This document shows, piece by piece, positions 20,018-36,591 of a stretch of DNA of 64,000 nucleotides. The notes beneath the pieces were generated by a model that was not told where the DNA came from, did not search any database, and worked only from the letters and a program-made list of their open reading frames with translations. The position numbers and the translations under genes were made by a program. Positions within the stretch are counted from its first letter, which is position 1. Each line of letters begins with the position of its first letter. The stretch is from Carboxylicivirga sp. (GTDB lineage Bacteria > Bacteroidota > Bacteroidia > Bacteroidales > Marinilabiliaceae): contig JAOARW010000064.1 in NCBI GenBank assembly GCA_025210475.1, forward strand, positions 1-64,000, given 5' to 3'.

Positions 20018-20037
20018 GCTATATTTTGGAGATGAAA

Positions 20038-20768: not shown

Positions 20769-20790
20769 GGTTGAAAAATCAAAACAATTG

Positions 20791-20818: not shown

Positions 20819-20824
20819 TTTATT

Positions 20825-20844
20825 TTGGACAACCCTTGGACAAC
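20825..20844. repeat. Left-end pair of TTGGACAAC repeats
   Basis: Two identical 9-mers at 20825 and 20836, 11 bases apart. The same pair with the same phasing lies at 59322-59341. Likely arm-type binding sites for the integrase or its accessory factor. Confidence 0.6.
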
Positions 20845-21019
20845 ATCACTTAAAGAAGTGAAACGTTGTTACGCTTTCTTCAGCTGGATAGTAACAATAC
20901 GAATTAGCATCCATATACCTATCCAACACTTTCAAGTCTTCTACTTTTTTCCTTCTTATCAATTTTAATTTCGTAAGACAGAAACCATCTTGCCTAAAAA
21001 GTTCTATTTTTAATCTGTT

Positions 21020-21718
21020 ATGATAGTTCCATCAATGTCATCTGAAGAATTGGCTAAAGAAATTATAGCTGATTATAAAAATGTGGAAGCCAAAACAAAG
21101 CACCTGTTGAAAAAGGTCCGTAGGGTTGCGGTTCGTTCAAAAGGTAAGCGTTTTCAAAAGCTAGTTGAATATAAATCACCTGAAAAAAATGATTGGATTT
21201 TATGTTTTAACTTTTCCAATAAAGACGTTTACTGTTCACCTGTGGTCTACTACCTAAATGATTTTGGTTTAAACGCTATTGAACTTTCACATAATCAACG
21301 GAAGGATATTTTTTCTCAAACTATAATGAAGTATGATTTGCACCATTATACTTCGCATTTCTTACAAAGGTATAATGAAAGGTTTCTAAAAGAAACAGAT
21401 ATGCCCAAATTGGACTTATTAAAGCATTTCATAGTACACAACCCGATGACTCAAGTAATGACCGTACCTGACAATGAAAAGTACAAAAATGGAATCTATG
21501 CAAAATTTAATGATGGTGTTGGTTTTGGGCAAATAGAAGTTCTTTCATCTAATTATTTTTTTCACTTCAAGACATTCCTTTCTACAGATATGATTTTTGA
21601 AGAACAAGATGATTACCTAAAGCAATCTGTTGCTGAATCTTTTTTACAGTACGAAGAACAATGGAAAGAAGTACTTGGGGATAGTGATTTAGGTGGATTT
21701 GGTGATGGAAATGATTAG
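21020..21718 (+). CDS. Unknown protein, tandem paralogue 1
   Basis: A 232-residue protein I do not recognise. It has no signal peptide or membrane helix. The most conserved stretch shared with the next gene is HYTSHFLQRYNERFLK, followed by LLKHFI-x-x-NPM and FHFKTF. The N-terminal third is lysine/arginine rich (KKVRRVAVRSKGK), which might contact nucleic acid. The C-terminus is acidic and ends in a glycine/aspartate-rich tail. It is the first gene inside the left end of the island, 25 bases before its paralogue. Confidence 0.6.
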   Translation: MIVPSMSSEELAKEIIADYKNVEAKTKHLLKKVRRVAVRSKGKRFQKLVEYKSPEKNDWILCFNFSNKDVYCSPVVYYLNDFGLNAIELSHNQRKDIFSQTIMKYDLHHYTSHFLQRYNERFLKETDMPKLDLLKHFIVHNPMTQVMTVPDNEKYKNGIYAKFNDGVGFGQIEVLSSNYFFHFKTFLSTDMIFEEQDDYLKQSVAESFLQYEEQWKEVLGDSDLGGFGDGND

Positions 21719-21743
21719 GTTTGTACGCTAAAAAACTCGCACA

Positions 21744-22394
21744 ATGATAGTACCCAATATGACATCCGATGAACTAGCCAATGAAATAATGGCTGATATT
21801 AAAAATGTAAGAACTAAAATAGGTTATGCGTCAAATAAAATCAGAAGAATTGCGATAAAATCACCCAAGAAGCATCATCAGCACATGCTTGAATATACTT
21901 CACCAATGAAGAATAATTGGATAGTTTTTATCAATTATTACCTTAAAGAACCTGTTTATGTACCTGTAGTTCATTATCTAAATCAATATGGATTAAACGG
22001 AATTATGGTTAGTGAAGGTGATATATCATTACAGCATTATACATCACATTTTCTTGACCGCTATAACCAACGGTTTTTGAAGAAAGATGATATGTCCAAA
22101 CTGGAATTGTTAAAGCACTTTATCAAGCAAAATCCAATGGCACAAACTCAAAGTTTGCCTGATGATAAGGATTATGCCAACCAAATATTTGGAAGGTTTA
22201 GTGAAGGAATGGGGTTTGGGTACAAAGAAAGATTAACCCGTAATATTTTGTTCCACTTTAAGACTTTTGTGTCTTCAGAAATGCGTTTTGAAAATCAGGA
22301 AGAAATATTCCAAAGTACCAGTGAATCGTACAAAGCTTTTTGGGATGATGTTTATGGTTATAGGAATGTGGATGCTTTCGGGGATGAAGAATAA
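21744..22394 (+). CDS. Unknown protein, tandem paralogue 2
   Basis: A 216-residue paralogue of the preceding gene, with the same opening (MIVP-x-M-x-S-x-ELA-x-EI) and the same HYTSHFLDRYNQRFLKK core. The two differ mainly in a short gap after the N-terminal third. Function unknown. A weak hairpin (GGGCAA / TTGCCC, 22407-22427) follows and separates it from the convergent secreted-protein gene. Confidence 0.6.
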   Translation: MIVPNMTSDELANEIMADIKNVRTKIGYASNKIRRIAIKSPKKHHQHMLEYTSPMKNNWIVFINYYLKEPVYVPVVHYLNQYGLNGIMVSEGDISLQHYTSHFLDRYNQRFLKKDDMSKLELLKHFIKQNPMAQTQSLPDDKDYANQIFGRFSEGMGFGYKERLTRNILFHFKTFVSSEMRFENQEEIFQSTSESYKAFWDDVYGYRNVDAFGDEE

Positions 22395-22447
22395 AAGTAT
22401 TGAAAAGGGCAACCTATATGATTGCCCATCTCAATATATCATATCTC

Positions 22448-23293
22448 TTATCGAACTACTTTAATTGTCTGCTTATTACCATCTGCGGTAATATAAGTAA
22501 TTAAGTAGATAGAACGGGATTGACTTTGTAAGTTGATTGGAAGTGATTTGCTATTCAAACGAACGTCTGTTTGCTGAACTAACTGCCCATTTGTTTTAGT
22601 GACTAGTATTTTACCTGCACTTTCTGCAATGATATTAGCTGTAAACATCCCATCAGTACCATTTGAAGTAACAGTAAATAGCGATGTGCTAGATTTAAGC
22701 TTTGGTGCATTCGGAATTGGCGTTGGGTTTCTACTTTCAAATGGATTACCTGTAACAGAATACACATAGCAATTCTGATTATCTGCCACCATAATCTTGT
22801 AATTCGGTGAAGCATCATCATCAGATAAATTAATCATTTTCCATTCGACACCTTCTGAACTGCCATACTCATGCAGTTCCTGAACCAGTTGCATGTCTTC
22901 ATTATAAACTACCCATTTATTTAAATCCCAATCTATTCCTATAAATTCGATTTTTGCATCATCGTTAAAAATGTATTGGGACAATTGCAAATTGAATTTT
23001 GGATTTTCTTGGTTAAGATGAAGCCTCATACTTTTTGACAATGCTATAGTCTTGATTAATGTATAATCACTCAATGAATAAATGTAAAGTTGGTCATGGT
23101 CGGGTGACATTGGGTCTGCACCTTCAATATAATAGATGACATATCCATAATCAGGTAGGTAGCAAGTGAAATAAAGACCATCTGTAACTGAACTCTGTGA
23201 ATCTGATGAAAGTGTGTTGTCAAGTGATACTTGGCTGATTACATTACCGCTTAGCAGCAATAGGAAAAATAGGATTAGTTCTTTTGTCTTCAT
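22448..23293 (-). CDS. Secreted protein with type IX-like sorting domain
   Basis: A protein of about 281 residues with a signal peptide (MKTKELILFFLLLLSGNVIS). The middle is beta-rich, with repeated tyrosines and a WDLNKWVVY strand, and gives no family match I can name. The last 70 residues (KILVTKTNGQLVQQTDVRLN, then SIYLITYITADGNKQTIKVV) have the layout of a type IX secretion sorting domain. An in-frame ATG also exists at 23305. It lies 80 bases after another secreted-protein gene on the same strand. Island-borne surface proteins of this type are unexplained. Confidence 0.6.
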   Translation of the reverse strand: MKTKELILFFLLLLSGNVISQVSLDNTLSSDSQSSVTDGLYFTCYLPDYGYVIYYIEGADPMSPDHDQLYIYSLSDYTLIKTIALSKSMRLHLNQENPKFNLQLSQYIFNDDAKIEFIGIDWDLNKWVVYNEDMQLVQELHEYGSSEGVEWKMINLSDDDASPNYKIMVADNQNCYVYSVTGNPFESRNPTPIPNAPKLKSSTSLFTVTSNGTDGMFTANIIAESAGKILVTKTNGQLVQQTDVRLNSKSLPINLQSQSRSIYLITYITADGNKQTIKVVR

Positions 23294-23373
23294 AATCGGT
23301 TTCATTTTTTAAAGTGAATATTGTTTTTTAAAGAATTTGGACGAACCTTATTATTCGCCCAATTAATCAATTC

Positions 23374-24792
23374 TTACATCCCAACTGCTGCTTTTACTTC
23401 GGTATATGTTTCAGCCTTTTTTAAAGCCTTTTCAAGTGTTTTGTTGGTTGACTTTGATAATGTTACAAGCTTGCGCTGAACTGTAATGTACTCTTCGATA
23501 TATTGACTGATGTCATCACTAACAATTTTCTTTGTCGAATAACTATGCTTAATTAGGTGATTAGCATTGTTGTAAGCTTTTTTGTTAGCATTGTTAATCT
23601 CAACAGTATTGGTTTCAAATTCATCTTCAATAGCTTTGACCATTGTTTCTTTCTCAAGTCGAATTTTATTTTCTTCCTTTTCCTTAACAGCCTCTTTTTC
23701 TGCTTTAGCAATCAAGCTAGGTAAATCGGTATCGTTAGGTTTTAATTTCAATGCTTGTTTGTAAAGTTTTACCGCAGAATCATATCGTTTGTATTTGAAA
23801 TTGTTATCGGCTTCATTCTTTAGATTATTAAACTCGGCTTCAATTTTAGCGTATTTGGTTTTGTTAAAGTCCCCTAGCACCTTGAATGGTATAAATTCCA
23901 TTTTGTCATTTCTTGAACCCTTGGGGAAGTAAGGAAAGACTTCTGTATTAAAGCGTCTATTATACTTCTCAATTCGTGCGTATAAAAGGAACATATCCGA
24001 AGCAATGTAGCTTAAATTCTCTACGGGCCAATGTGGTTCATGTTTGCTCCATTCAGCCTGAACAAGTCCTAACTTTTCACGAATAGCCCTGCTTGATGTG
24101 TACCTTGTTTGACCGTACACATAACGGTCCTTTTTTAACTTTTCGTAGGTTTCTTTTTCATCAATACGTACTTCTGTATTACCTGTCTGAAGATTGCGAA
24201 GTATCTTGTCGTAACAAAAACCATCGTAAAATTTGTAGATGTAAACGGCTTCTTTTGTCTTTTCTGTCCAAGTGCCTGTGGCAAACCCATCATCATCTAA
24301 TTGTCCTTTGACGATTAAATTTCCAAAATCGTTATGTGTTGAAGTAAACTCACCGACAATGATGTCATTGATATAATTAGCCTTTATTTCTATCAGCTTT
24401 ATCCCTTTGGTTTTATCGAAACGGGTATAAACAAACAAACCGTTTTTGTAACCATCCTTGTACGTCCCCTTAAATGTATCCTTTAATATGTGATTGTTGC
24501 CATTTTTGAAATTGTCAGCAAGATAAACCCACTCACCATCTTTAAAGCCATTCTTGTAGTTCCCTTTGCAGTTAAACTTAGCTTCAGATACCATGATGGA
24601 AGCTTGCATGTTGTACGGTTGGTTTGTTAATGAAAAACTGCCATGGTAAATTCGTTCGTACTCATCATTTTCGTAATACTGATAGGTTGCTTTTCCTCCT
24701 TCATAGTCACCGTTGTAGGTTTTGATTTCTTGGGCTGTTGTCATGTTTGCAACAGCTAAGCACACAAGTGCTAAGAACAAAATTCTTTTCAT
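23374..24792 (-). CDS. Secreted MORN-like repeat protein with TPR-like segment
   Basis: A 472-residue exported protein (signal peptide residues 1-20, cleavage near ANMTTAQ). The N-terminal half holds MORN/YwqK-like units (YNGDYEGGKATYQY, GNYKNGFKDGEWVY, GTYKDGYKNGLFVY). A segment around residues 330-365 (KYDSAVKLYKQALKLKPND) is a clear TPR-like motif. The C-terminal 100 residues are helical and lysine/glutamate rich. MORN-like repeats often bind partners or membranes. I cannot assign a function. Confidence 0.6.
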   Translation of the reverse strand: MKRILFLALVCLAVANMTTAQEIKTYNGDYEGGKATYQYYENDEYERIYHGSFSLTNQPYNMQASIMVSEAKFNCKGNYKNGFKDGEWVYLADNFKNGNNHILKDTFKGTYKDGYKNGLFVYTRFDKTKGIKLIEIKANYINDIIVGEFTSTHNDFGNLIVKGQLDDDGFATGTWTEKTKEAVYIYKFYDGFCYDKILRNLQTGNTEVRIDEKETYEKLKKDRYVYGQTRYTSSRAIREKLGLVQAEWSKHEPHWPVENLSYIASDMFLLYARIEKYNRRFNTEVFPYFPKGSRNDKMEFIPFKVLGDFNKTKYAKIEAEFNNLKNEADNNFKYKRYDSAVKLYKQALKLKPNDTDLPSLIAKAEKEAVKEKEENKIRLEKETMVKAIEDEFETNTVEINNANKKAYNNANHLIKHSYSTKKIVSDDISQYIEEYITVQRKLVTLSKSTNKTLEKALKKAETYTEVKAAVGM

Positions 24793-25341
24793 ATAATTTC
24801 ACTTGATTGTACCTCAGACCCAAAGGTGATTAATGTTGGTATGTATATAAAAAAAGTGCGTGGGTCTACCTTATCGGAATACAGGTATCGCCAAACACCC
24901 ACGCCCACAACAAGAATAGCCCACGCAGAACGTGGGCGTATCACTTATCATTCATGTGGACGTTTAAAAATTGGCGATTTTGTATTCACTGAATAAAAAG
25001 CTTACGCTCTATATACTTTAATATGTCTTAATTATAATTCGTCTTTCTTATATCATCTAGGTTTAAATGTGTACATCAAAGGTAATAATAATCGGCATAG
25101 AATAATCTGTTGATAGGTAATTAATGTTAAACTGAAGAATAGGAAGGACTAAAGGTCAAAAGAAAGGGTAAAAAAGGAACAAAGGGATGGTAGGGGGTAT
25201 ATATAATACCATATGTTGAACCTTTTTTTATTTGGACCTAGATTTTTGATTATTCCCTGGTTGAACATCTACCTTTTACCTACCTTGTATTCATCTAATA
25301 AACGGTGCAACATCCTCAGTACCAATTTTAAATTGTTATTT
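24793..25341. other. Intergenic region with clustered GC-rich inverted repeats
   Basis: About 550 bases without a convincing gene. In its left half GCGTGGGT (24858-24865) can pair with ACCCACGC (24897-24904). A second hairpin, GCCCACG / CGTGGGC (24919-24925, 24931-24937), follows. ACGCCCAC (24901-24908) can also pair with GTGGGCGT (24932-24939), so the structures compete. The right half is A/T-rich and featureless. Confidence 0.5.
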
Positions 25342-25776
25342 ATGAAAACAGTAGATGAAACTATTAAGCATTTACAGCAGCAAGGTGAAGATTCGCAATT
25401 TATATTCGTTGCTAACCCTACAATTATTGAAGATGTGATATACATAGATGGTCGCAAGGTTGATAATTTGCTTATTCACATAAGACAAGGGGCTTACTTA
25501 GTATTGCCACAAATCGTTTATTACACATCAATGCTTGATGATGATTCGATGGACTTTATTAGTACAGTTTCGGTTGCGAAGAATTTAATTGGATACAATA
25601 GCGAAGACATCCATCTTGTCGTTGACCGAAAGATACCTGAAGACCATGGGCTATCGGATATTGTATTACCCAATCAAATAACAAATATGAATCAGTACGT
25701 TGAAACCTTGAAAGACATGGATTATGTAAAAAGGTGTGAAGATTTTTTTGGTGGGCAAATAATTGAATTGGAATAA
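25342..25776 (+). CDS. Unknown 144-residue protein
   Basis: No family recognised. From the ATG at 25342 it reads MKTVDETIKHLQQQGEDSQF. The upstream extension is hydrophobic and would need an earlier start at 25213, so I excluded it. No signal peptide or membrane helix is seen. It stands alone between the structured intergenic region and the nuclease operon. Confidence 0.5.
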   Translation: MKTVDETIKHLQQQGEDSQFIFVANPTIIEDVIYIDGRKVDNLLIHIRQGAYLVLPQIVYYTSMLDDDSMDFISTVSVAKNLIGYNSEDIHLVVDRKIPEDHGLSDIVLPNQITNMNQYVETLKDMDYVKRCEDFFGGQIIELE

Positions 25777-25921
25777 TGCAGCGAAGAATCTTCAATTTGT
25801 TTTAATAATTTAAGTCTTAAATCCACTAGTCTTACTATCTAATTATTTGTTAAATTCAGGTCCTTAATCTTTCTTATCCAACAATAATGAAAGGACAAAC
25901 AATAAAGTAATTCCTTATTTA

Positions 25922-26674
25922 ATGACAGATAATATTGACTCACTGGCTTCATTTCTTAGTGATTATAAGCAATTGCACATTGATGCATTTAATCAGTACG
26001 AAAACAAAGTAAAGACATTAGGGAAAGCGTACAATAAAATCCTACAATGCAAGAAAGATAGTAACCATACAGAAGCTTGGGATTTTTCGGTATTTAGTAT
26101 CATCAAAATTCTTCGGCCTGAAGAAAATTTGCATTCCCCGATGCTTTATGAACTTCTGAACACAATTGGTGCACATGGGCAAAAAGACCTTTTTTATAAG
26201 CTATTTTTGGAAGAAGTATTGGGTGCTGAAAACTCATTGAAATTTATTAATGAAAGTCATGAAGATTACCACATCAGGTGTGAAGAAGCAATTAATAATG
26301 AAAACGAAAAAGGTCGTATAGACCTAACGGTGAAATCATTGAATCCTGATAAACCATTTGCCATTATTATCGAAAATAAATGGGAAAGTGGTGATAGTTG
26401 TCCTGACCAACTTTTTAAATACTATATTAATTTCACTGAAGGTAAAGGCTATACGGATGAAAACTTACTTGTTATTTACCTCACGAAGTATGGTGGTAAT
26501 CCGACATGGATTGAAAATGATAAATTCAATGAATTTTTAAAGAATAATAGAAACATCAATTATTTTCCGATTTCATATTCAAAGCACATAAAAAACTGGT
26601 TAGAAAAATCAGTTACAGAATGTAAATCTGAAAAAGTAAAATATACAATAACCCAATATATAAGAATACTGTAA
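25922..26674 (+). CDS. PD-(D/E)XK nuclease-like protein, N-terminal part
   Basis: A 250-residue protein with the core of the PDDEXK_4 (PF14281-type) nuclease family. ENLHSPMLYELL near residue 78 is the usual opening, GRIDLTVKS supplies the metal-binding Asp, and FAIIIENKWESGD supplies the E-x-K. Relatives are longer single chains. Here the frame ends just after a QYI motif and the next gene appears to carry the missing C-terminal part, overlapping by one base (TAATG). This is either a natural two-subunit form or a frameshift. It opens a tight four-gene plus-strand operon. Confidence 0.7.
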   Translation: MTDNIDSLASFLSDYKQLHIDAFNQYENKVKTLGKAYNKILQCKKDSNHTEAWDFSVFSIIKILRPEENLHSPMLYELLNTIGAHGQKDLFYKLFLEEVLGAENSLKFINESHEDYHIRCEEAINNENEKGRIDLTVKSLNPDKPFAIIIENKWESGDSCPDQLFKYYINFTEGKGYTDENLLVIYLTKYGGNPTWIENDKFNEFLKNNRNINYFPISYSKHIKNWLEKSVTECKSEKVKYTITQYIRIL

Positions 26675-27207
26675 TGACAAAATCACTTGACGACCAAAAG
26701 TTTGAACTAATTACACAGAAAGGAAACTTTGAATTTGCTTTTGATATTTATGAAACTTTTGAAAGTATTATTGATAGGTTAGAAGATGATTTTTGGAAGA
26801 ACTTAAATGTCGAACTGAATAAGAAGTTTATTGACTACAGCATTTCACAAGATGTAGATGATGAAAGTGTAACTTTAATAAAACATAAATCCTTTAGGGA
26901 TGTGGCGTTCTTTATTCAGTTGCATGATAATCAGTTTATCTATGGATTTTACATACCGTGTAAGCAGAATCAACTGAAAAAAATCGGAAATGAATATAAA
27001 CCTGAATTTGAAGACTTATGGCTTGATTCTGAAAAAAAGATTGCATGGTTTTGGGATGGTGAACCATTTGACACATCTAAATTATCCCTGTTGAAAAAGA
27101 TACTTCCCAATGAAGATAAGTTGTTAAAGTCATATTTAAGGATTGTAGATGAAATGATTCAGCATAAGACATCTATACTGTTAGAATATGAAAAGAACCT
27201 AAAATAA
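26674..27207 (+). CDS. Probable C-terminal half of the split nuclease
   Basis: A 177-residue protein beginning MTKSLDDQKFELITQKGNF. The start resembles the segment that follows the QYI helix in intact PDDEXK_4 proteins (short linker, then an acidic helix with FEFAFDIYETF). The rest is a beta-rich domain with IAWFWDGEPFD. It has no catalytic motif of its own. The one-base stop-start overlap implies translational coupling with the upstream nuclease part. It is followed 15 bases later by the UDG-like gene. Confidence 0.55.
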   Translation: MTKSLDDQKFELITQKGNFEFAFDIYETFESIIDRLEDDFWKNLNVELNKKFIDYSISQDVDDESVTLIKHKSFRDVAFFIQLHDNQFIYGFYIPCKQNQLKKIGNEYKPEFEDLWLDSEKKIAWFWDGEPFDTSKLSLLKKILPNEDKLLKSYLRIVDEMIQHKTSILLEYEKNLK

Positions 27208-27222
27208 TCATTGCCATTGAAT

Positions 27223-28128
27223 ATGAATCAAAAAGACCTACTGACAGAATACACCATTATAGAAAACCGCATTTCCGAAGTGGTTGACTTTTTCAATGCA
27301 CATAATGATAAAAAGTCATACAAGCCTTACTATAAGGGAATAAGTACCCTTCAAAGCCCTCTTATCCATAATCCTGATATTTTATTCATTGGAATTAATA
27401 ATGGGGATGGTGAATACAAGCAAGCAATTAAAAATGGTGAACCGATTCCTGTAAATGCTTGTCTTAATGGTATTGAACCACCTAAAGAAATTAATTGGTT
27501 TAAAGATGGTAATGCTAGGGGACGTTTTAGGAAGCCTAAAGAAAAGGAATGGGTTAGTCATAAATGGTATATGCGGAATAAGCAGTACAATAATGATTTC
27601 CCCAAAAATATGATTGACTTACTGTATGAAATAGCTACGTTGAAGTATCCAAACGGGAATCATGATTACGATGATAAATCTGTTCCTTTTTGGTATGAAG
27701 ATTTTGGGAAGAATCTGATGTACACGAACCTTTATCCAGTATCAACTACAGATATTAATGATTTGAAAAAGGTTCATCAAGCATTGGCTAAAGAAGCAGG
27801 TTTAAAAGATTTATGGAAAACTTCTAAAGGCACTGAAAAAGCAATAAATGAATGGGTGGTTAGGAAGTACTTTATTAATTCTATTCGACAATTGGTAAAA
27901 CTTGTTGAACCTAAAGTGATTGTTTGTATGGGAATGACTGCTATGAACGATTTTACCTACACAACTTATAAGGAAAAACAGATTGCATTAACAGAACGAA
28001 CCTTTGGTGAAAAGAAAATCCCTGTTGTTGGTTTTTCAAGAAAAGGTAGTTGGAACAGCAGGATTCCTGAAATAGCAAAAACTATTGCCCCACTTTTAGT
28101 TTGCGACCAAGTTTCATCAATTAATTAA
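27223..28128 (+). CDS. Uracil-DNA glycosylase-like protein (tentative)
   Basis: A 301-residue protein whose landmarks fit the uracil-DNA glycosylase superfamily at low similarity. DILFIGINNGDGEY parallels the GINPG motif of MUG-type enzymes, MYTNLYPVS follows in the middle, PKVIVCMGMTA is in the place of the conserved strand 'P-x-V-I-V-x-L-G-x-x-A', and VVGFSRKGSWNS is in the place of the final loop. If correct, it may recognise modified or uracil-containing DNA. I used the ATG at 27223 rather than a TTG at 27211. It is third in the nuclease operon. Confidence 0.45.
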   Translation: MNQKDLLTEYTIIENRISEVVDFFNAHNDKKSYKPYYKGISTLQSPLIHNPDILFIGINNGDGEYKQAIKNGEPIPVNACLNGIEPPKEINWFKDGNARGRFRKPKEKEWVSHKWYMRNKQYNNDFPKNMIDLLYEIATLKYPNGNHDYDDKSVPFWYEDFGKNLMYTNLYPVSTTDINDLKKVHQALAKEAGLKDLWKTSKGTEKAINEWVVRKYFINSIRQLVKLVEPKVIVCMGMTAMNDFTYTTYKEKQIALTERTFGEKKIPVVGFSRKGSWNSRIPEIAKTIAPLLVCDQVSSIN

Positions 28129-28132
28129 TCTG

Positions 28133-28798
28133 ATGACAAATAAGTATGTCATAGCGGATATTCACGGCTGTTACAACACTTTCGATAAACTACTGAATAA
28201 AGTTGGGCTATCAAAAGGTGATGAATTATTTCTGTTAGGTGATTATATCAACCGTGGCAATGATAGTAAGAAAGTTGTTGATTACATTATCGACCTTCAG
28301 AATCAAGGACATTATATCACTGCGTTAAAAGGTAACCATGAAGAAATGGTATTTGATTCATTGGAACTTGAAGGCTGGACGTCAGGTGCAAAAGAAACTT
28401 TAGAAAGCTTTGGGGTTAATCACTTGAACCAGTTGGATACAAAGTATCTAAAATGGTTTTCTAAACTAAAATCTTTTCATCAGGATGATGAATTTATCTT
28501 TGTTCATGCAGGTTTAAATTTTGATGGTTACAATCCATTTGAAGATAAGCGCAGTGCCTGTTGGATACAGGATTGGTATGAAAGTATTGATTACGATTGG
28601 CTTGGCAAACGAAGAATCATTCATGGTCACGTTCCAATTGAAAAAAGTCAGATTGAAAAGATGATGGATGATTTCAATAAAACCAAAGTGTTGAATATTG
28701 ATAATGGGTGCTATTTGACTGACAAAAAAGGTTATGGAAGCATGGTGTGTGTTAACTTAACTAACAATGAATTAACCCTCCAAGCCAATATCGGTTAA
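28133..28798 (+). CDS. PPP-family metallophosphoesterase
   Basis: A 221-residue phosphatase of the PPP/calcineurin-like type. All metal and catalytic signatures are present: ADIHGCY (residues 6-12), GDYINRG, GNHEEMV, FVHAGLNFDGY and RIIHGHVP. Related proteins are protein phosphatases (PrpA/PrpE) or ApaH-like hydrolases, which cannot be told apart here. It follows the UDG-like gene by 4 bases and ends the operon, overlapping the convergent gene at 28795 by 4 bases. Confidence 0.82.
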   Translation: MTNKYVIADIHGCYNTFDKLLNKVGLSKGDELFLLGDYINRGNDSKKVVDYIIDLQNQGHYITALKGNHEEMVFDSLELEGWTSGAKETLESFGVNHLNQLDTKYLKWFSKLKSFHQDDEFIFVHAGLNFDGYNPFEDKRSACWIQDWYESIDYDWLGKRRIIHGHVPIEKSQIEKMMDDFNKTKVLNIDNGCYLTDKKGYGSMVCVNLTNNELTLQANIG

Positions 28799-29088
28799 AG
28801 TAAATTCAACTTATATCCGTTAAGAATTTCATCCAAATCCTCAACTTCTATAGCTTTGATTTCGTGGCATTTTTTCAAATTTTCAGCTGTCCGTTCTTCC
28901 ATGTGTTTCTTTAATAACAGATAATCTGAATACTTTAGGATATGAATGTGTTTATCATGATTGGGCTGATTAACTAGTTGACACATGGCAAGTGCTGCCA
29001 AAATTAATGTGCCGAAAAATGCAAAATTGAACTCATCTTCACGCACTCGCTTATTCAGTAGAACGTATGTGCCAACTTTTTTCTTCAT
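28795..29088 (-). CDS. Unknown small membrane protein
   Basis: A 97-residue protein with one likely membrane helix (FAFFGTLILAALAMCQL, about residues 23-40) flanked by charged segments, including KKHMEERTAENLKKCHE. No family recognised. It lies 2 bases after the gene at 29091, so the two are one transcription unit, possibly a small membrane toxin with its partner. That idea is inference only. Confidence 0.5.
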   Translation of the reverse strand: MKKKVGTYVLLNKRVREDEFNFAFFGTLILAALAMCQLVNQPNHDKHIHILKYSDYLLLKKHMEERTAENLKKCHEIKAIEVEDLDEILNGYKLNLL

Positions 29089-29090
29089 GA

Positions 29091-29417
29091 TTAAAACAGG
29101 GATTGAATCTTCGGTTCAATCCAATTTTTTAAAACGTCATCAATATTATAGACTTTCAACTTAATTTCATCGTTGATAACTGCAAGTACCTGAATATAAA
29201 CTTTCTTCACATTGGGTACTTCCAAGCTTGCATTATAAAAGAAGCTCATAGTTTTATCAAATGAATCAATATCAACTGTGCGTTCTTCAAGGTCATTATA
29301 AACGACACGAATCTGATATGGATGTTGATGTATATTCTTTTTAAGTGATTCAAAATCTTTTACACCTAGTTTTGACATCAACTTTGGCAGTGTTGTATCG
29401 CAGTTTATGTACTTCAT
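29091..29417 (-). CDS. Unknown 108-residue protein
   Basis: No family recognised. It begins MKYINCDTTLPKLMSKLGVKD and looks soluble, with alternating strands and short helices. Directly upstream of the small membrane-protein gene. An 18-bp perfect palindrome at 29533-29550 lies about 115 bases before its start and may be an operator. Confidence 0.5.
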   Translation of the reverse strand: MKYINCDTTLPKLMSKLGVKDFESLKKNIHQHPYQIRVVYNDLEERTVDIDSFDKTMSFFYNASLEVPNVKKVYIQVLAVINDEIKLKVYNIDDVLKNWIEPKIQSLF

Positions 29418-29532
29418 ATCAAAAGCATTTCACGTTCTTAGGTATTTCTATAATATCTTTTCTTTTAATATTTATTCGCCTAATGCTAGTGATTCAACTA
29501 TATGAACAGGCTTTCTGCAAGCAATTCGTTAT

Positions 29533-30218: not shown

Positions 30219-30824
30219 TTACATTATTGTCCTATTTAAAACGCTAGCCCATTCATAGTATTGTTCATTCTGATAGATTATTAAATCTGTTTCTTGATTG
30301 GCAATTTCGGACAATTCGACCAAACAGGTGTCTTCCGAAATTTTACAACTTTCAATTCTAAAACAAGAATTTGATTTATATAAAGCTTCCTGTTCGGGGT
30401 GTTCAGGATTTAATTCAATCAGGCTTTTTGAATGGCTTTCGTTAGATGTGTTAATTTTGAATATTAATCCTGTTTTTACTGGCAATCGCTCTTGAAATTG
30501 ATAACAGGATAGAAATGCAGGAAAACTGATAGTCTTACCAGTCTTATCGGTAAACCAATTATAAAACTCCTGTTCTTTACCCTCGTTTATTGCAACAGGC
30601 TCATTGCGATATAAAGTAATGTTGTTACAAGATTTAAGTTGGTCAAGCCCACTATTTATAGCAATTTCAATATTATTCCACTCTTCTTTTTTATCTCCAT
30701 TAATTCTAATATTTGAATTAATAATTTCCGAATGATAACCTTGATATAACTTTAGTAATTCGATAGCTGCATCATCTCTATCTAAAGCGGCAAATACATC
30801 TTCCTGACTTGGGTGATGTGACAT
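30219..30824 (-). CDS. Putative ADP-ribosyltransferase-fold protein
   Basis: A protein of about 201 residues with the three landmarks of R-S-E class ADP-ribosyltransferases in the right order. They are an arginine strand (ITLYRNE), a serine strand (KTISFPAFLSC), and the E-x-E loop followed by a beta strand (HPEQEALYKSNSCFRI). Enzymes of this class transfer ADP-ribose from NAD to protein or nucleic acid targets and often act as toxins. Alternative start: ATG at 30854, overlapping the M78 peptidase stop. It is the last gene of the operon that begins with the sigma-like gene. The activity is inferred from motif order alone. Confidence 0.55.
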   Translation of the reverse strand: MSHHPSQEDVFAALDRDDAAIELLKLYQGYHSEIINSNIRINGDKKEEWNNIEIAINSGLDQLKSCNNITLYRNEPVAINEGKEQEFYNWFTDKTGKTISFPAFLSCYQFQERLPVKTGLIFKINTSNESHSKSLIELNPEHPEQEALYKSNSCFRIESCKISEDTCLVELSEIANQETDLIIYQNEQYYEWASVLNRTIM

Positions 30825-30841
30825 ATGTATAGTTTTTTTTA

Positions 30842-31633
30842 TTAATCTTCCCATATTACACTTATAGCAAGGTTTGCAGATGAATGAACCAAACAAAATT
30901 CATAAAACACATCATCTACAAAATCATCTTTAACATCAAGCCATGTTGACTTAACAATTTCTTGCTTAGAATCTTCCACAGAATAAATCGTATTATCATT
31001 AAAAAACTCTGCGCAAACAGAATCAGAAGGTGGTGGCAACTTTGTTATACCTTTAATGTAATACCTGAAATCTTCTGATTTTCGCCAATAATGAACCTTG
31101 TTATTTCTAGTATAAAAAACACAAATAGGATGATTCCCGTGTTCTGTGAAACGATGAATAACTGAAGTTCTACTTACCCTAAAATGGTCTGAAATCGTTC
31201 GTATTAAGTTTGGGGAAAATGGTTTTGCTTGAATACTTGCAGCAAACATATCTGTTGGCAATAGCAATTCAGATGCGAATTCATTGGCTTCAAATTCTTG
31301 TTTAAGAACTTTATGTTGGTTTTTATCATCAAACCAAGAAAGCGAACTAATATCATCGTTGTGATTTGTAGAATCTTTACGATGCATAAGATAATGCCCT
31401 ATTTCATGTGCAATAGTAAATCTTTTTCGTGTTTCAAAATCAGTATTGTTGTTTAGTGTTATTATGGAATGCTTACTGTTATGCAGAATTCTACCTTCAC
31501 AACCATTTAACCCAACATGCCTAATTGGTATTTTTAAAGCATGTGCAATATCTTCAATTTCTATATTTTGCGGTTCGGAAATTCCAAAATCATTTAAGAT
31601 TGACAAAGCCAATTGACGTGGATTATTCATCAT
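30842..31633 (-). CDS. ImmA/IrrE-family (M78) zinc metallopeptidase
   Basis: A 263-residue M78 peptidase. The N-terminal 60 residues match the usual helical lead-in, FTIAHEIGHYLMHRK gives the HEXXH zinc site, and EFEANEFASELLLP gives the third ligand. The C-terminal half (about 150-263) is a separate beta-rich domain. M78 enzymes cleave and inactivate repressors: ImmA acts on the ICEBs1 repressor, IrrE/PprI on DdrO, and CapP on CapH in CBASS. It starts at an ATG inside the end of the 122-residue gene and is divergent from CBASS across the operon promoter region. Confidence 0.85.
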   Translation of the reverse strand: MMNNPRQLALSILNDFGISEPQNIEIEDIAHALKIPIRHVGLNGCEGRILHNSKHSIITLNNNTDFETRKRFTIAHEIGHYLMHRKDSTNHNDDISSLSWFDDKNQHKVLKQEFEANEFASELLLPTDMFAASIQAKPFSPNLIRTISDHFRVSRTSVIHRFTEHGNHPICVFYTRNNKVHYWRKSEDFRYYIKGITKLPPPSDSVCAEFFNDNTIYSVEDSKQEIVKSTWLDVKDDFVDDVFYEFCLVHSSANLAISVIWED

Positions 31634-31991
31634 CTTCGTCCAAATTATCAAGGATTAATGAATCTTCAATAAGTTTAAGAATTTCATCTTTATCTAACTT
31701 TTCAAGATTTCTAAATTGGGTTTGGGGCATTAAACTGGCAAGTTTATTTTGCAACGCTTCAATTGGCAATGTTGCTATAGATTTTAGTTCTACTTGAACT
31801 TTATTCTTAGCAGCTTCTATTTTGGCAGTGCCAATTTCTTTGAAAAGCTTACTCTTAGCTTTAAACAGTTGGAATTTAGAAAACTTCACTAACTCCGTTT
31901 TGTCAGTGCTTTGAATATCTTCTAATGGCAAATTTAAACTTGCTTCTTCAGCAATATTTGTCATTAATTTAAAATACTTCCTATTATCCAT
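31623..31991 (-). CDS. Unknown helical protein with acidic tail
   Basis: A 122-residue protein, helical throughout by appearance, with a lysine-rich middle and a C-terminus ending NLDEDDE. No family recognised. It lies 6 bases after the sigma-like gene and overlaps the peptidase start by 11 bases. By position it could be the peptidase substrate, an anti-sigma factor, or an antitoxin for the ART-like protein. None of these is shown by the sequence. Confidence 0.55.
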   Translation of the reverse strand: MDNRKYFKLMTNIAEEASLNLPLEDIQSTDKTELVKFSKFQLFKAKSKLFKEIGTAKIEAAKNKVQVELKSIATLPIEALQNKLASLMPQTQFRNLEKLDKDEILKLIEDSLILDNLDEDDE

Positions 31992-31997
31992 AACACC

Positions 31998-32594
31998 TTA
32001 ATTTTTAACGCAGTTTTTCTTTGCTTGGTAGATAAGCTTATCATTCTTATTGTATACATCCTTTACAGGTAGTTCCATTAGCTCAGCAATTTCCCTTGGC
32101 TTTTTCCCTTCCTTTATTGCTTCCCAATAAAAATTCAAGTCTTCAACATTTGCTACCAAATGTTCAATACAGTCTATTAATAGGTCAATTTTATCGTCAT
32201 ATACTTCATCAAAAACATCATAATAAAGTTCATCATTATATGAAACTTTTGTTTCTTCCCTGTTTTGTTTTCTTTTGTATTTGTCAAGTTGATTAGAAAT
32301 TAGACTGTTAGCGATTGTTATTATGTGCTTAACTAACGGCACGTTTTCATAATCCCAATACCATTCATAGGTATAAATTTTTTCTAATGCTTTTTTTATG
32401 TAGTACTGCTTCGCAGGTTCACCTAATTCTTTTTCAGAATGCGCCCCATATTCTGTATACCATAATCTGTGCTCAATAGCTTTTTCACACCTGGTAAATA
32501 TTTCTTCAAATTCCCCCTCTGTAATGCAGGATAGAATACTGATGATATTCTTTTTGTCAATTAATGTGATTTTTTTTTCAGGAATTCTGCTCAT
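31998..32594 (-). CDS. Sigma factor-like regulator
   Basis: A 198-residue protein that looks like a diverged sigma-70-type factor. About residues 90-115 (PLVKHIITIANSLISNQLDK) resemble a region-2-like helix. About residues 160-195 (EAIKEGKKPREIAELMELP, then VKDVYNKNDKLIYQAKK) form a region-4-type helix-turn-helix. The similarity is weak, so another DNA-binding regulator is possible. I chose the ATG at 32594 over a TTG at 32600. It starts 53 bases from, and divergent to, the first CBASS gene, so it is well placed to control both operons. Confidence 0.55.
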   Translation of the reverse strand: MSRIPEKKITLIDKKNIISILSCITEGEFEEIFTRCEKAIEHRLWYTEYGAHSEKELGEPAKQYYIKKALEKIYTYEWYWDYENVPLVKHIITIANSLISNQLDKYKRKQNREETKVSYNDELYYDVFDEVYDDKIDLLIDCIEHLVANVEDLNFYWEAIKEGKKPREIAELMELPVKDVYNKNDKLIYQAKKNCVKN

Positions 32595-32647
32595 GTTCAA
32601 TCATAAGGTTAATGTAAGACGATTACTAAACTTTAAAAATAATAATT

Positions 32648-32827
32648 ATGGCGACAAATCCACCAAAAGATGGCAGCCGAAAAGGCGCAGTAAGACAAAG
32701 GTCACAGGTAAAGAATCCCAAAACAGGGCTTTGGACCAAGCGTGATTCTATAACAGGAAAATTTATGGATGTAAAAACATCTAGTGATGCACCATTTAAA
32801 GGTGTAAGGAAGGAAAGTAAGTTATGA
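32648..32827 (+). CDS. Small basic protein at the head of the CBASS operon
   Basis: A 59-residue frame beginning MATNPPKDGSRKGAVRQRSQ and ending KGVRKESKL. It is rich in Lys, Arg and Gly, with the element NPKTGLWTKRD. Its stop overlaps the Cap15-like start in the ATGA manner, so it belongs to the operon. Similar small basic proteins seem familiar next to defence genes, but I know no function. It is easily missed because of its size. Confidence 0.65.
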   Translation: MATNPPKDGSRKGAVRQRSQVKNPKTGLWTKRDSITGKFMDVKTSSDAPFKGVRKESKL

Positions 32828-33438
32828 ACAATTATTTCAATTATTACAAATCAGAAGTATTAGTCGGGCTAATTTCAGTATTAGCGATAGTAATATTTCT
32901 AGCAAAGGAACAATGGGGTATATCAATTACTATTGCAGGAACAATAACTACCCTACTTGTATTTACATCAAAGCATCTATGGAAGCACCCACTATTTAAA
33001 TGGATGTTTTGGGTTGATAACTTTTCGGGTAGGTATGAAGGTATTGTAAAATACCAATATGTTGATGGGAATGGTAACTGTAATACAGGTGAAATGAAGC
33101 AGGTTAAAATTATTAATCAAACTGGTTCACGAATAACTGTTTCAACATTTACAGTTACTCCTGATGGTACAAAATCCTCACTTTCCGTTAATAAAGGTAT
33201 GTACGTTGAAAAGACCGAAGATGAACAACATTATCGGTTAATCTACAATTACCACAACGAAGGTAGCACTGAACAAGGTTTCCCACCTCATTACGGAACT
33301 GAAGTAATCAAATTCATTAAGAATGGTGAAGATAAATCACTTTCGGGAAACTATTACACTGGTCGCCACCCATTTCAGACTAAAGGTGAATTGATTGATT
33401 TCAAACACATTAATAATAATTTAAAACATGAATTTTAA
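32824..33438 (+). CDS. cap15: CBASS effector, Cap15-like 2TM beta-barrel protein
   Basis: A 204-residue membrane protein with two N-terminal helices (about residues 12-27 and 32-50), then a beta-rich domain of about 150 residues. The layout and the opening of the soluble part (WVDNFSGRYEGIVKY) match the S-2TMbeta family, whose characterised member Cap15 binds a cyclic dinucleotide and disrupts the inner membrane to abort infection. It is preceded by an ATGA overlap and followed 11 bases later by the CD-NTase, as in known loci. The bound nucleotide cannot be told from the sequence. Confidence 0.82.
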   Translation: MNNYFNYYKSEVLVGLISVLAIVIFLAKEQWGISITIAGTITTLLVFTSKHLWKHPLFKWMFWVDNFSGRYEGIVKYQYVDGNGNCNTGEMKQVKIINQTGSRITVSTFTVTPDGTKSSLSVNKGMYVEKTEDEQHYRLIYNYHNEGSTEQGFPPHYGTEVIKFIKNGEDKSLSGNYYTGRHPFQTKGELIDFKHINNNLKHEF

Positions 33439-33449: not shown

Positions 33450-34448
33450 ATGGCAACATTACACAAAGAATTTATTGCATTTAACAAGCAAATTAAGCTT
33501 ACAGACAGCAGAAAAGATAAGCTTAGAAAAAGTCGTAAAGACATTAAAAAGAAAATCCGTAAGTGGTTTAAGGAAAATAAGCCTGATGAACTTCAACCAA
33601 AGTTTCATGGTCAGGGGTCGTTTGAAATGAACACAGGTGTAAACCCAATACCTGTAAAGGATGACGAAGGTAATTCATTACTAAAGTATGATTTGGATTT
33701 TGGTGTCTATTTCATTGAAAAAGAAGATGAAGACAATAAGAAGACCATTGACACATGGCATAATTGGGTTTACAAAGCAGTGGAAAACCACACTAATCAA
33801 AATCCAATTAAAAAAACAACTTGTGTCCGTGTAATTTTTAGTGATGGTCACCACATCGACCTACCAATTTATTACAAACAGGATGATGTAATCGAATTGG
33901 CCCACAAATCTAAAGATTGGATTGAATCAGACCCTAAAGCCTTTTATGAATGGTTTAACGACCTTAAATGTCAGCAACTAACACGTATTGTACGGTATTT
34001 AAAAGCTTGGAAGAATTATCGTGAAGACAAAAATTCAAATCTTAAATTACCTAGTGGTTTTGAACTAACAATACTGGCAGCCAATAATTACGTTAAGGAT
34101 GATAATGATGATAAAGCACTTCGTGAAACAGTTCGTAAAATTGATGAAGAACTGAATAAAGAAGGTGGCTTTGAATGTATGCGTCCGACTTCTCCAGTTG
34201 AAGATGTTTTTGCTGATTATTCAGACACACGCAAAACAAACTTCTTGAATACACTTGCCAGTTTGTTGAATGATTTGGATAGGGCAAAGGATGAAAAGAA
34301 CTTCAAAAAAGCTTCCGAAATATTGCGTAATAATCAATTTGGCGAACGCTTCCCATTGGGTGAAGATGCGAATGAAAAAGATAAAAGCAATAATCTAGGT
34401 GCTGCCATTGGTGGTGCAACAGTTAAACCTAAGCCTTATGGATATTAA
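33450..34448 (+). CDS. CBASS CD-NTase (cGAS/DncV-like nucleotidyltransferase)
   Basis: A 332-residue oligonucleotide cyclase. The nucleotidyltransferase signature is complete: GQGSF (residues 54-58), then the D81-x-D83 pair in KYDLDFGVYF, with the third metal ligand D137 in HIDLPIYY. These enzymes make the cyclic second messenger after phage infection. The C-terminus ends in a glycine/proline tail (VKPKPYGY), of interest because E2-linked CBASS cyclases are conjugated through their C-termini. The last 11 bases overlap the E2-like gene. The clade and product are not assignable by eye. Confidence 0.88.
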   Translation: MATLHKEFIAFNKQIKLTDSRKDKLRKSRKDIKKKIRKWFKENKPDELQPKFHGQGSFEMNTGVNPIPVKDDEGNSLLKYDLDFGVYFIEKEDEDNKKTIDTWHNWVYKAVENHTNQNPIKKTTCVRVIFSDGHHIDLPIYYKQDDVIELAHKSKDWIESDPKAFYEWFNDLKCQQLTRIVRYLKAWKNYREDKNSNLKLPSGFELTILAANNYVKDDNDDKALRETVRKIDEELNKEGGFECMRPTSPVEDVFADYSDTRKTNFLNTLASLLNDLDRAKDEKNFKKASEILRNNQFGERFPLGEDANEKDKSNNLGAAIGGATVKPKPYGY

Positions 34449-35082
34449 AAAGCAGGTTGAAGAAGTACTCGGAAACTTTCCAACTTTACATCACGATGAA
34501 GTAAACAATTCCCTTAATGGTGAATTGTTTATTTCAGCATGTGATTCATATGATGTTAGAATTGAATTAAATGGGTATCCCAAACACTTTCCTGTTGTTT
34601 ATGAAGTTGGTGAACGTATTCCAAAAGAAGTTTACCGACACATTTATTCTGATACGGGTTCGTGTTGTTTAACCACTAGGGCAAAAGCAGAAATTTTACT
34701 GAAGACCAAAATTACAACCCTAAACTTATTCGTCAAGGACATTGTAGTCCCTTACTTTCAAAATAATTCCTACTATGAAATCAATAGAAAGTATAAGACT
34801 GAAGAATATTCGCACGATGCATCAGGTGTTGTGGAAGGGTATATGGATATATTACAAACAAACAATGAAAGGAACATTGCACAATTAATATTGTATCATG
34901 CGCAAGGGAATAAGAAGCTACGTTTGCAAAATATCTGTTACTGTGGTAGTGGCTTGTCCTTTAAACATTGTAATCGGGGTAAGCACTTTGATTTGTATAA
35001 AAACTTCAGAAAGATTTCAATTGAAACTTTGCAAAATGACTTTCTGATTTTTCAGAAAATGATTCCGAATATAATTCAATAA
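34438..35082 (+). CDS. CBASS E2-like protein with C-terminal SEC-C motif
   Basis: A 214-residue protein with an N-terminal E2-like conjugation domain. The segment HFPVVYEVGERIPKEVYRHI, then DTGSCCLTT (C76 or C77 as the active-site cysteine), corresponds to the E2 core. There is no E1 or JAB gene nearby, which matches the 'short type II' CBASS class, where the E2 alone modifies the cyclase. The C-terminus carries a SEC-C-like zinc motif (CYCGSGLSFKHC, C167/C169/C178). Start taken at 34438 (MDIKKQ); the upstream frame lies inside the cyclase. Confidence 0.78.
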   Translation: MDIKKQVEEVLGNFPTLHHDEVNNSLNGELFISACDSYDVRIELNGYPKHFPVVYEVGERIPKEVYRHIYSDTGSCCLTTRAKAEILLKTKITTLNLFVKDIVVPYFQNNSYYEINRKYKTEEYSHDASGVVEGYMDILQTNNERNIAQLILYHAQGNKKLRLQNICYCGSGLSFKHCNRGKHFDLYKNFRKISIETLQNDFLIFQKMIPNIIQ

Positions 35083-35090: not shown

Positions 35091-35795
35091 ATGATTTTAT
35101 CGTTTGCTGTAATTTCTATTTTAAACCTAATGTATTCATCAATAGGTAACGAAATAAATCTGCCTTTTCTAGTTAAAAAGAAGAATTACTGGAATAGGCT
35201 ATTTTTAGAAAGTATTGAAGCATACCTGAAAAAAGATGAAAGACAAGGTTTAAGCTACTCTTACTTTGTTTTCTTTACGATTGGGGTCTTAGCATTACTT
35301 CTATATAAATTAGTATCGTTACATCCATGTGCAAAAGACATGGGCTATCCTTGGGGAATGGAAGCCATATTCTACACTTTATTACTGCTATTTGGATTTA
35401 AGTCAAATTCTGAATTAAAAGAAAGCACGTTAAGAATAGTCAATCAAGTTTTAAAACTAGCCAAAATGGTTGTAATCATTTTCAATGTTATAGCGGTTCT
35501 CGTTATAGTGTTTTATTTGCCAAATAATGAATTGCCACCAATTCTGATAATGAAAATAAACATGTCTTTGATTGTGGCAATAGTAACGCTTTCTGTTACC
35601 ATGTATATTATTTATATACTATTTCCTCATCTATCATCTAAATTATTAGTAGGCACGATGAAGTTCATATTTTGTAGATTATTAAAACACGATAGACAAG
35701 ACCCTATTTCAGGATTATTTAGACACTGTGGGTATATAACTGGAATTTTTAGTTTGGTTCAATTCATAATAAGTTGGCTTCTGCCTAAATGTTGA
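35091..35795 (+). CDS. Multi-TM membrane protein after CBASS E2
   Basis: A 234-residue membrane protein with four or five hydrophobic helices (about residues 1-15, 60-80, 90-105, 125-150, 165-190, 215-230). I recognise no family. It starts 8 bases after the E2-like gene on the same strand, so it is very probably cotranscribed with CBASS. It could be a second effector, a partner of the Cap15-like protein, or an unrelated passenger. Confidence 0.55.
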   Translation: MILSFAVISILNLMYSSIGNEINLPFLVKKKNYWNRLFLESIEAYLKKDERQGLSYSYFVFFTIGVLALLLYKLVSLHPCAKDMGYPWGMEAIFYTLLLLFGFKSNSELKESTLRIVNQVLKLAKMVVIIFNVIAVLVIVFYLPNNELPPILIMKINMSLIVAIVTLSVTMYIIYILFPHLSSKLLVGTMKFIFCRLLKHDRQDPISGLFRHCGYITGIFSLVQFIISWLLPKC

Positions 35796-36018: not shown

Positions 36019-36591
36019 ATGTCATTAAAACATTCTGTCACCACCAGTAATTATTTGGAATGGGATTCTGTGTTTAATAAATCAATGAAGCTTCTAAAAA
36101 CTGATGAAAAGAAATTCAAAATCGCATTTCTTTCCATTGTTGGTATTAATATGGGTTTACGGATTTCGGATATTTTAAAATTGAAACATCAGGACTTAAA
36201 ATCAGACAACATTATTCTGTCCGAACAAAAAACAAAGAAACGTAGGGAAATAAGAATTAACGATAATGTTAAAGCTGCTTACAAAATTTACCGTGAACGA
36301 TTAGGTATTGTTTCTGATGATGATTTTTTATTTAAATCACAGAAGGGCGTAGTTTTTTCAGTTCGTCATGTCAATCGACTTCTTAAAGAAGTTTTCGGAA
36401 CAAAATCTAAAAACATCAGTAGTCATAGTTTACGGAAAACATTTGGTAGGCGTATATGGGAAAATGACAATTACTCAGAACGAAGCTTGATATTATTATC
36501 AAAGCTTTTTAATCACACATCACCTGCCATCACAAGAATTTATTTAGGCATTCAACAGGAAGAACTTGACAATATCTACCTTTCACTTTAA
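36019..36591 (+). CDS. Catalytic-core-only tyrosine recombinase
   Basis: A 190-residue protein consisting of the tyrosine recombinase catalytic domain alone. GLRISDIL gives the first Arg, SHSLRKTFG gives the H-x-L-R, FNHTS gives the second His and RIYLG gives the Tyr nucleophile. No N-terminal core-binding domain is present, which is unlike the full-length integrase at the right end. It may act in resolution or inversion within the element. No clear site pair is visible beside it. Confidence 0.75.
   Translation: MSLKHSVTTSNYLEWDSVFNKSMKLLKTDEKKFKIAFLSIVGINMGLRISDILKLKHQDLKSDNIILSEQKTKKRREIRINDNVKAAYKIYRERLGIVSDDDFLFKSQKGVVFSVRHVNRLLKEVFGTKSKNISSHSLRKTFGRRIWENDNYSERSLILLSKLFNHTSPAITRIYLGIQQEELDNIYLSL

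Follow-up and report, generated by a model that had tools for sequence, protein, structure and literature searches.

A recurring SIG-P122-CapP cassette beside CBASS and E1-like immune operons, proposed as a sigma-factor variant of CapH/CapP

A 64,000-nucleotide stretch of a Carboxylicivirga sp. genome (Bacteroidota; contig JAOARW010000064.1, positions 1 to 64,000), hereafter the window, carries a minus-strand operon that lies head to head with an operon of the cyclic oligonucleotide-based antiphage signaling system (CBASS). It encodes a protein assigned at the family level to the extracytoplasmic function (ECF) sigma factors (SIG), a 122-residue helical protein (P122), the M78 metallopeptidase CapP, and an ADP-ribosyltransferase (ART)-like protein. 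The recurring unit comprises the first three genes, SIG-P122-CapP, and is found at 49 loci; the ART-like gene appears to be a local addition in the same operon. We propose that SIG-P122-CapP is a self-contained switch for immune operons, in which CapP would cut P122, an anti-sigma factor, and the freed SIG would transcribe both its own operon and the immune operon, an account that we regard as probable. Toward a broader proposition we lean only slightly, namely, that these cassettes represent a widespread, undescribed class of immune control, in which a DNA-damage-sensing CapP frees a dedicated ECF sigma factor from its anti-sigma factor and thus turns on CBASS and ubiquitin-like (E1/E2) operons via paired divergent promoters, the cassettes being exchanged as modules.

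The 49 loci consist of 26 from a phylum sample, 22 from a second collection, and the window. In the phylum sample (395 genomes), the CapP search matched in 137, and 40 loci were fetched, comprising 32 non-window loci with E ≤ 7.6e-40 and 8 weaker ones. A SIG-profile hit was located within 1.5 kb upstream of CapP in 26 of these 32 best-scoring loci. Among the remaining six, an open reading frame (ORF) matching the rebuilt SIG profile starts beyond the 1.5-kb limit in four (L054, L056, L057, and L064), L041 encodes a CapH of the helix-turn-helix (HTH) type, and L042 yielded none; weaker but long CapP matches such as L065 to L067 are HTH-type as well. The SIG profile derives from first-set loci, which makes the second collection the fairer test: SIG is present in 22 of its 80 loci, which were gathered with a query alignment that came from sigma-linked CapP. 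The cassettes in this collection include contigs named Burkholderiales, Rhodocyclales, Phycisphaeraceae, Verrucomicrobia, Spartobacteria, and Bryobacterales, mostly metagenome assembled, and the nearest named relative of the window cassette belongs to Robertkochia sediminum (L073; Flavobacteriales, Bacteroidota). SIG and P122 are both called in 46 loci, and in 42 of these the distance between them ranges from -25 to +19 bases. Five loci with an atypical divergent side (L051, L058, L059, L061, and L062) were kept in the counts; L095, which hits the rebuilt SIG profile (9.2e-15), and 80 CapP-like loci from viral contigs are outside them, and ORF calling is unreliable in the GC-rich loci L081, L083, and L111. 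Twenty-two loci were grouped by eye from alignments as window-type.

In the window, SIG and P122 are separated by 6 bases, P122 and CapP overlap by 11 bases, and 53 bases lie between the SIG ATG and the start, at 32648, of the leader ORF of the divergent operon, the CBASS membership of which follows from its Cap15, its cGAS/DncV-like nucleotidyltransferase (CD-NTase), and its E2-like protein, all identified with Pfam and PADLOC models. A first-pass annotation made from the sequence of the window had placed the four minus-strand genes and their spacings correctly, had recognized the divergent CBASS operon at this distance, and had treated the four genes as a unit. The search for co-occurrence with and without CBASS that it called for bears this out for SIG, P122, and CapP, which are accompanied by a divergent CBASS cyclase in 14 of the 49 loci, and not for the ART-like gene, for which no relative was found in the other 48.

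The ART-like gene begins 17 bases after CapP (from ATG 30824) or overlaps it by 13 bases (from ATG 30854) and is therefore probably cotranscribed with it. Its ART-like identity, as given in the first-pass annotation, clears the Pfam threshold by a narrow margin, with a PF03496 score of 25.5 versus a cut-off of 23.4 bits (9.4e-6). R-S-ExE is the residue motif of ADP-ribosyltransferase exoenzymes, and candidate R, S, and EQE residues were picked out in the protein by eye; none of the PDB sequences matched it at E ≤ 1. The close spacing and the Pfam match would both suit a four-part defense system with the ART-like protein as a second effector, as suggested in the first-pass annotation, yet single-sequence searches of 294 further sampled class genomes (E ≤ 1e-4), of collections of phages, plasmids, and viral contigs, and of the remaining 48 cassette loci (E < 0.01) recovered no relative. 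The four-gene unit was accordingly rejected, a recurring role of the ART gene as second effector found no backing, and such a system is very unlikely.

The protease can be named more precisely than the M78 peptidase of the first-pass annotation. Besides the Pfam M78 match (1.9e-20), it matches the PADLOC capP profile over its full length (1.3e-59; residues 8 to 269 of the protein versus positions 2 to 242 of 242) and the solved CapP structure (PDB 7t5t) at 1.6e-9 over residues 37 to 182, and H76, E77, G79, and H80 are invariant among 13 aligned CapP proteins. Neither Lon nor SAVED occurs among the family matches listed for the window CapP, which is the sole CapP match at E ≤ 0.001 in its 7.42-Mb genome. 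In a tree of 84 CapP proteins, 46 sigma-linked and 38 HTH-linked, the two labels change only twice, versus a shuffled mean of 28; 28 of the 38 HTH-linked proteins stand apart, and 10 with a short CapP fall on the sigma-linked side. The tree was built by a quick method, from which rows with weak scores, without HExxH, or of uncertain type, along with L042, L062, L081, and L086, were dropped.

The sigma factor identity of SIG holds at the level of the family. The window SIG alone has no significant Pfam family (none at E ≤ 0.1), with a best sigma match of E 0.23, and its relatives are very divergent (9 to 26% identity). Sigma-70 region 2 is matched at E ≤ 0.1 by 9 of 24 members of the SIG family (best 5.5e-9), and two region-4 models are matched at the same threshold by 5 and 6 of the 24. 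In the PDB, the family profile finds the ECF sigma factors SigH (5e-9) and SigW (7.1e-8), below a top row (2.6e-10) that is a repeat protein and stems from repeated weak hits. The predicted structure of the window SIG (predicted local distance difference test [pLDDT] 81.4; predicted template modeling score 0.55) is two-domain and ECF-like: a flexible linker connects regions 2 and 4, and no extra domain is present. ECF sigma factors top its Foldseek list, none at E ≤ 0.001 (best 2.9e-3), and its region 4 superposes on that of SigD at 2.4 Å over 61 residues. The missing Pfam match, the low identities, the structure hits short of E 0.001, and a window without a matching promoter pair could all be explained by a degenerate sigma-like protein that has no promoter activity and whose linkage is historical; this is extremely improbable given the profile and structure evidence and the matched promoter sites in relatives described below. 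Thus, the sigma-like identity of the first-pass annotation is upheld once relatives are considered, by the family profile and by structure comparison, region 4 above all, and its suggestion that the peptidase could control the sigma-like regulator, the 122-residue protein, or both fits the identities of CapP and SIG and the co-occurrence of the three genes.

P122 is the proposed anti-sigma factor and substrate of CapP. Its AlphaFold2 model (pLDDT 83.4) has helices at residues 3 to 17, 31 to 72, 77 to 87, and 101 to 121, and its profile retrieved nothing convincing from the PDB (best E 0.0096, to coiled proteins). The single P122 sequence had no match in plasmids and, among 71 genomes of the family, found only its own genome, and a single sequence is therefore too weak a probe. 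Similarity to a known regulator emerged with the PADLOC capH model (PDLC04142), matched at E ≤ 1 by 13 of 24 P122 family members (best 8.4e-19). The window P122 matches it at E 0.053 and with its C terminus only (residues 74 to 122 versus positions 60 to 103); the model scores HTH-type CapH best (to 7.4e-33) and also matches P122 of another lineage at 2e-11 to 2e-13 (L033, L034, and L040), where no HTH model matches. In a profile comparison with CapH that used 23 window-lineage loci (the 22 window-type loci and L046), the C termini aligned with an hhalign score of 18.8 (P 0.0013); none of 20 column shuffles scored above 3.2, the reversed profile reached 4.8, and the N-terminal halves scored 3.0. 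The common C-terminal motif, aromatic/Ala/Met-Arg-Asn/Lys/Glu, takes the form FRNL in the window and in L073, ARNG or ARKG in other lineages, and FRKF or FRNY in HTH-type CapH. This pattern, which was written after reading the sequences, occurs in 29 of 46 P122 and 28 of 30 HTH-type CapH proteins (shuffled means 1.0, 2.0, and 2.2; maximum 6), and in the P122 model the FRN motif lies in the loop preceding the last helix. Because this CapH-like motif is present, cleavage of P122 by CapP near it is plausible as a reading of the sequence. The finding of the CapH-like segment in P122 (no such search was made of SIG) argues against a mechanism in which the target of CapP is SIG, for instance through removal of an inhibitory part, and P122 is an adaptor or chaperone. 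The linkage of all three genes would fit such a mechanism too, but the window SIG has no domain beyond the two of an ECF factor, and the idea appears very improbable.

The N-terminal HTH of a DNA-binding CapH repressor was not found in P122 by models, profiles, or fold search. None of 24 P122 proteins scanned matched PADLOC models named for HTH, RmrA, or control proteins; in contrast, eight HTH-type CapH proteins matched 19 to 25 families each, largely HTH-, RmrA-, and control-type regulators. These results suggest that the PADLOC capH model captures both HTH repressors and the non-HTH P122, two distinct kinds of protein, and annotation tools may therefore hide the sigma-cassette variant.

The intergenic regions between SIG and the divergent genes contain promoter-like sites in a subset of the relatives. 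The best palindrome surpassed dinucleotide shuffles (60 each) at p ≤ 0.05 in 12 of 48 regions. When nonoverlapping promoter halves were compared within and across loci, the own-locus excess among the 22 window-type loci was 0.94 at width 28 and 0.81 at width 22 (maxima of 40 shuffles, 0.38 and 0.52), and among the other 26 loci, it was 1.32 versus 0.76, 1.18 versus 0.90, and 0.83 versus 0.64 at widths 28, 22, and 16; an earlier version with overlapping halves was biased upward and is not relied on. With a leave-one-out matrix of SIG-side sites, GGCAAA-N16-GCATAT-like sites were detected on the defense side at p = 0.01, the floor of the test, in 8 of the 11 training loci, the same number as for sites on the SIG side. 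Among 11 untrained loci, L048 was positive on both sides (0.01 and 0.02) and L053 on the defense side (0.01), and the other nine were positive on neither at 0.05. A leave-one-out scan of whole loci (9,746 to 29,504 positions) placed both sites in the top five in 8 of the 22 window-type loci. The untrained L076 becomes the ninth (ranks 1 and 2) if the scan may extend 40 bases into the called SIG ORF, its SIG-side site lying 34 bases inside. Sites matching on both sides are thus present in 9 of the 22 and undetectable in the window. With a matrix of all 11 sites, paired top-five sites were found in 0 of 32 HTH-type CapP loci, a control that is weaker because these loci come largely from other phyla and are often GC-rich. 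The -10 block varies among loci (GCATAT; GCTTAT in L048; GCTATA in L050, where it is not significant) and tends to agree across both sides of one locus, the pattern expected if both operons are served by one dedicated sigma factor. By eye, another symmetric motif (TAACGGTTTT-GGTA) is visible near the SIG start in cassettes of other lineages (L035, L102, L093, and L034), and in L035 on the defense side too. L045 has a second strong defense-direction site at about -152 from SIG (score 20.1, locus rank 2) beside the divergent pair.

The near-palindromic regions could also be read by a dimeric repressor. With the CapH-type C terminus that P122 retains, they are the points in favor of a different model, in which P122 acts as a DNA-binding repressor akin to CapH but with a new fold, SIG is a separate activator that P122 does not hold, and CapP derepresses. 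The failure of every P122 scanned to match the regulator models that capture HTH-type CapH and the long helices of its fold speak against this model, as do the symmetric sites themselves: each consists of two blocks 16 bp apart on each strand, a layout that reads as two promoters, not one operator. We consider the repressor model unlikely.

The divergent side of the 49 loci carries a CD-NTase cyclase in 14, an E1-like gene in 15, and either in 28. These counts cover any opposite-strand gene upstream of SIG in the fetched stretch, with labels from iterative profiles that may miss distant members or include other ThiF-like proteins. Adjacency to an immune operon, as in CapH+CapP, thus applies to the window and its relatives, and since cyclase and E1-like genes are both common, the cassette is not tied to CBASS. 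Among 104 proteins of the divergent operons of 36 loci, cyclase and E1-E2 models rank on top of the PADLOC matches, with up to 11 members each; in L036, L083, and L111, the operon caller found no contiguous divergent operon. The downstream control, 102 proteins of the same cassettes, has no defense family with more than 2 members and includes other defense genes, matched, for example, by pAgo, Cas6, DpdF, AbiEii, and methylase models. Homologs of the leader ORF (57 to 69 aa) are the divergent ORF nearest to SIG in seven other cassette loci; in the window, this ORF is basic (MATNPPKDGSRKGAV...) and overlaps the start of Cap15 by ATGA. The CBASS operon of one locus, L033, closely resembles that of the window (leader 87.5%, CD-NTase 79%, E2 65%, and Cap15 55% identity), and its cassette is of another lineage, with a CapP 30% identical to that of the window and no significant similarity in SIG or P122. 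On the strength of this one pair, immune operons seem to swap regulatory cassettes as modules.

Taken together, the proposed switch would work as follows. In the resting cell, P122 would hold SIG. CapP would be activated, with single-stranded DNA as the probable trigger, which is the published case for CapH+CapP and PprI/DdrO (PMC13373217 and PMC10904395), and would cut P122 near F93-R94-N95, freeing SIG. SIG would then transcribe its own operon, in which the ART gene rides along as a local addition, together with the immune operon opposite. The divergent promoters used would match each other, as promoter-like sites do at the sequence level in the subset of relatives; this is extrapolated to the window, where the target would be the Cap15/CD-NTase/E2 CBASS operon.

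Several results weigh against this proposal. The P122 model has no fold match with E ≤ 0.001, and profile and fold searches of the PDB recognized no anti-sigma domain in P122. The HH-suite probability of the C-terminal P122/CapH comparison is just 7.3%; the profile built from the remaining P122 lineages shows no match to that of CapH (score -0.2), though the capH model hits members of these lineages; and the strict Arg motif is missing from 17 of 46 P122 proteins. The symmetric sites were first noticed by eye in the intergenic regions, and the promoter tests are therefore partly post hoc. At width 16, the excess of promoter halves in the window-type loci (0.32) stays below the shuffle maximum (0.39) and is not significant, 13 of these 22 loci have no top-five pair, and with the all-11-site matrix, the pair is in the top five in 0 of 27 other cassettes. 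The 53-bp region of the window has no significant promoter pair (SIG side, p = 0.09; defense side, p = 0.74) and also scores low in the half-site tests, and neither these nor the palindrome test gave anything significant there; the nearest relative, L073, has no significant pair either. The divergent and downstream gene sets match similar numbers of families (236 versus 210), and the surroundings are defense-rich as a whole, so that general island effects are present. Finally, the single-stranded DNA trigger is carried over to the cassette by analogy.

The features of the window are listed in Table 1. Just past the CBASS operon, a short tyrosine recombinase of 190 aa is encoded at 36019-36591 on the plus strand (Phage_integrase, 1.1e-16), which may mark a mobile or defense island. 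On the other side of the cassette, at 25922-28798 (plus strand), a PD-(D/E)XK nuclease-family gene is followed by three close-set genes that encode a 177-aa protein without an assigned family, a 305-aa protein with sub-threshold likeness to uracil-DNA-glycosylase, and a calcineurin-like phosphoesterase.

Table 1. Features of the cassette and of the divergent CBASS operon (positions in the window)
Feature	Position	Strand	Remarks
SIG, ECF-type sigma factor (family-level assignment)	31998..32594	-	198 aa; region 2 at about 11-114, low-confidence linker 117-132, region 4 at about 133-197
P122, helical protein, proposed anti-sigma factor and CapP substrate	31623..31991	-	122 aa
F93-R94-N95 of P122, CapH-like C-terminal motif, candidate cleavage site	31707..31715	-	Loop before last helix; sequence reading and analogy to the DdrO loop
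CapP, M78 metallopeptidase	30842..31633	-	263 aa; CapP profile matched full length
HEIGH zinc-binding motif of CapP, residues 76-80	31394..31408	-	Alignment of 13 CapP proteins
ART-like protein	30219..30854	-	Start ATG 30854 or 30824; PF03496 9.4e-6; outside the recurring cassette
Divergent intergenic region, 53 bp	32595..32647	.	Promoter pair of relatives not detectable here
Leader ORF opening the CBASS operon	32648..32827	+	59 aa; homologs in 7 other cassette loci
Cap15, CBASS effector (two transmembrane segments [2TM] + cyclic dinucleotide receptor domain)	32824..33438	+	PDLC00669 2.1e-91
CD-NTase, CBASS cyclase	33450..34448	+	PDLC00774 1.7e-120
E2-like protein of CBASS	34438..35082	+	First ATG of ORF 34399-35082; PDLC00872 3.7e-65
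234-aa protein with hydrophobic segments	35091..35795	+	Family matches all below cut-off or absent; possible last gene of the CBASS operon

Among the operon-adjacent regulators of CBASS and related operons, CapW, CapH+CapP, and CapK+CapS are repressors that let go (PMC13373217); a sigma factor released by a protease would, if the proposal is true, act as a positive switch that amplifies itself and has a promoter specificity of its own. It could explain the induction of a good part of the immune operons of Bacteroidota, and it would join control by CapP with the sigma logic of CalpL/CalpT/CalpS. No description of a CapP-sigma cassette was recognized in the open-licence literature, judged mostly from titles and abstracts, the coverage of which is incomplete, and absence from print is not established.

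In Deinococcus, PprI (IrrE) also belongs to M78, and DdrO is an HTH-type repressor of a radiation response. The pair resembles the proposed mechanism in that protease cleavage is stimulated by single-stranded DNA and occurs at a regulator loop holding Leu117-Arg118; residues E116-L117-R118-G119 of this cleavage-site loop were mutated, and R118 touches a phosphate of single-stranded DNA in a predicted model (PMC10904395). It differs in its kind of substrate, and no sigma factor figures in the available parts of that source. CapW/BrxR and CapK/CapS likewise provide operon-adjacent, DNA-damage-responsive control of immune operons, but through a WYL repressor or a kinase with a STAS-winged-HTH repressor; CapK/S are reminiscent of anti-sigma kinases with their antagonists, yet CapS works as a DNA-binding repressor (PMC13373217). 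ECF sigma genes beside caspase-type systems (PMC8195603) and a sigma-like domain in BrxL (PMC12839542) have been described, neither of which is a SIG-P122-CapP cassette.

CalpL/CalpT/CalpS follows the same protease, anti-sigma, and ECF sigma logic in phage defense, but its protease, CalpL, is of the Lon type, carries a SAVED domain, and is activated by cyclic tetra-adenylate (cA4) in type III clustered regularly interspaced short palindromic repeat (CRISPR) immunity (PMC11417357). The protease of the cassette is M78/CapP rather than a Lon protease with a SAVED sensor, its small protein is different, and its neighbors are CBASS or E1-like genes. CapH+CapP, a repressor with a protease activated by single-stranded DNA, is located beside CBASS, Bub, and other operons, and CapW or CapH+CapP is reported beside 219 of 544 Bub operons (PMC13373217); some of these regulators might be sigma cassettes. 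The cassette shares with CapH+CapP the same protease family over its full length, a position beside CBASS or E1 operons, and a putative CapH-like C-terminal segment in the candidate substrate. It differs in that no HTH repressor was found, for which reason it is not CapH/CapP by the strict definition, and in that its output is a sigma factor from a separate gene, so that control would be positive, by release of an activator, instead of derepression. The best reading of the cassette is therefore a sigma-factor variant of CapH/CapP that works like CalpL/CalpT/CalpS.

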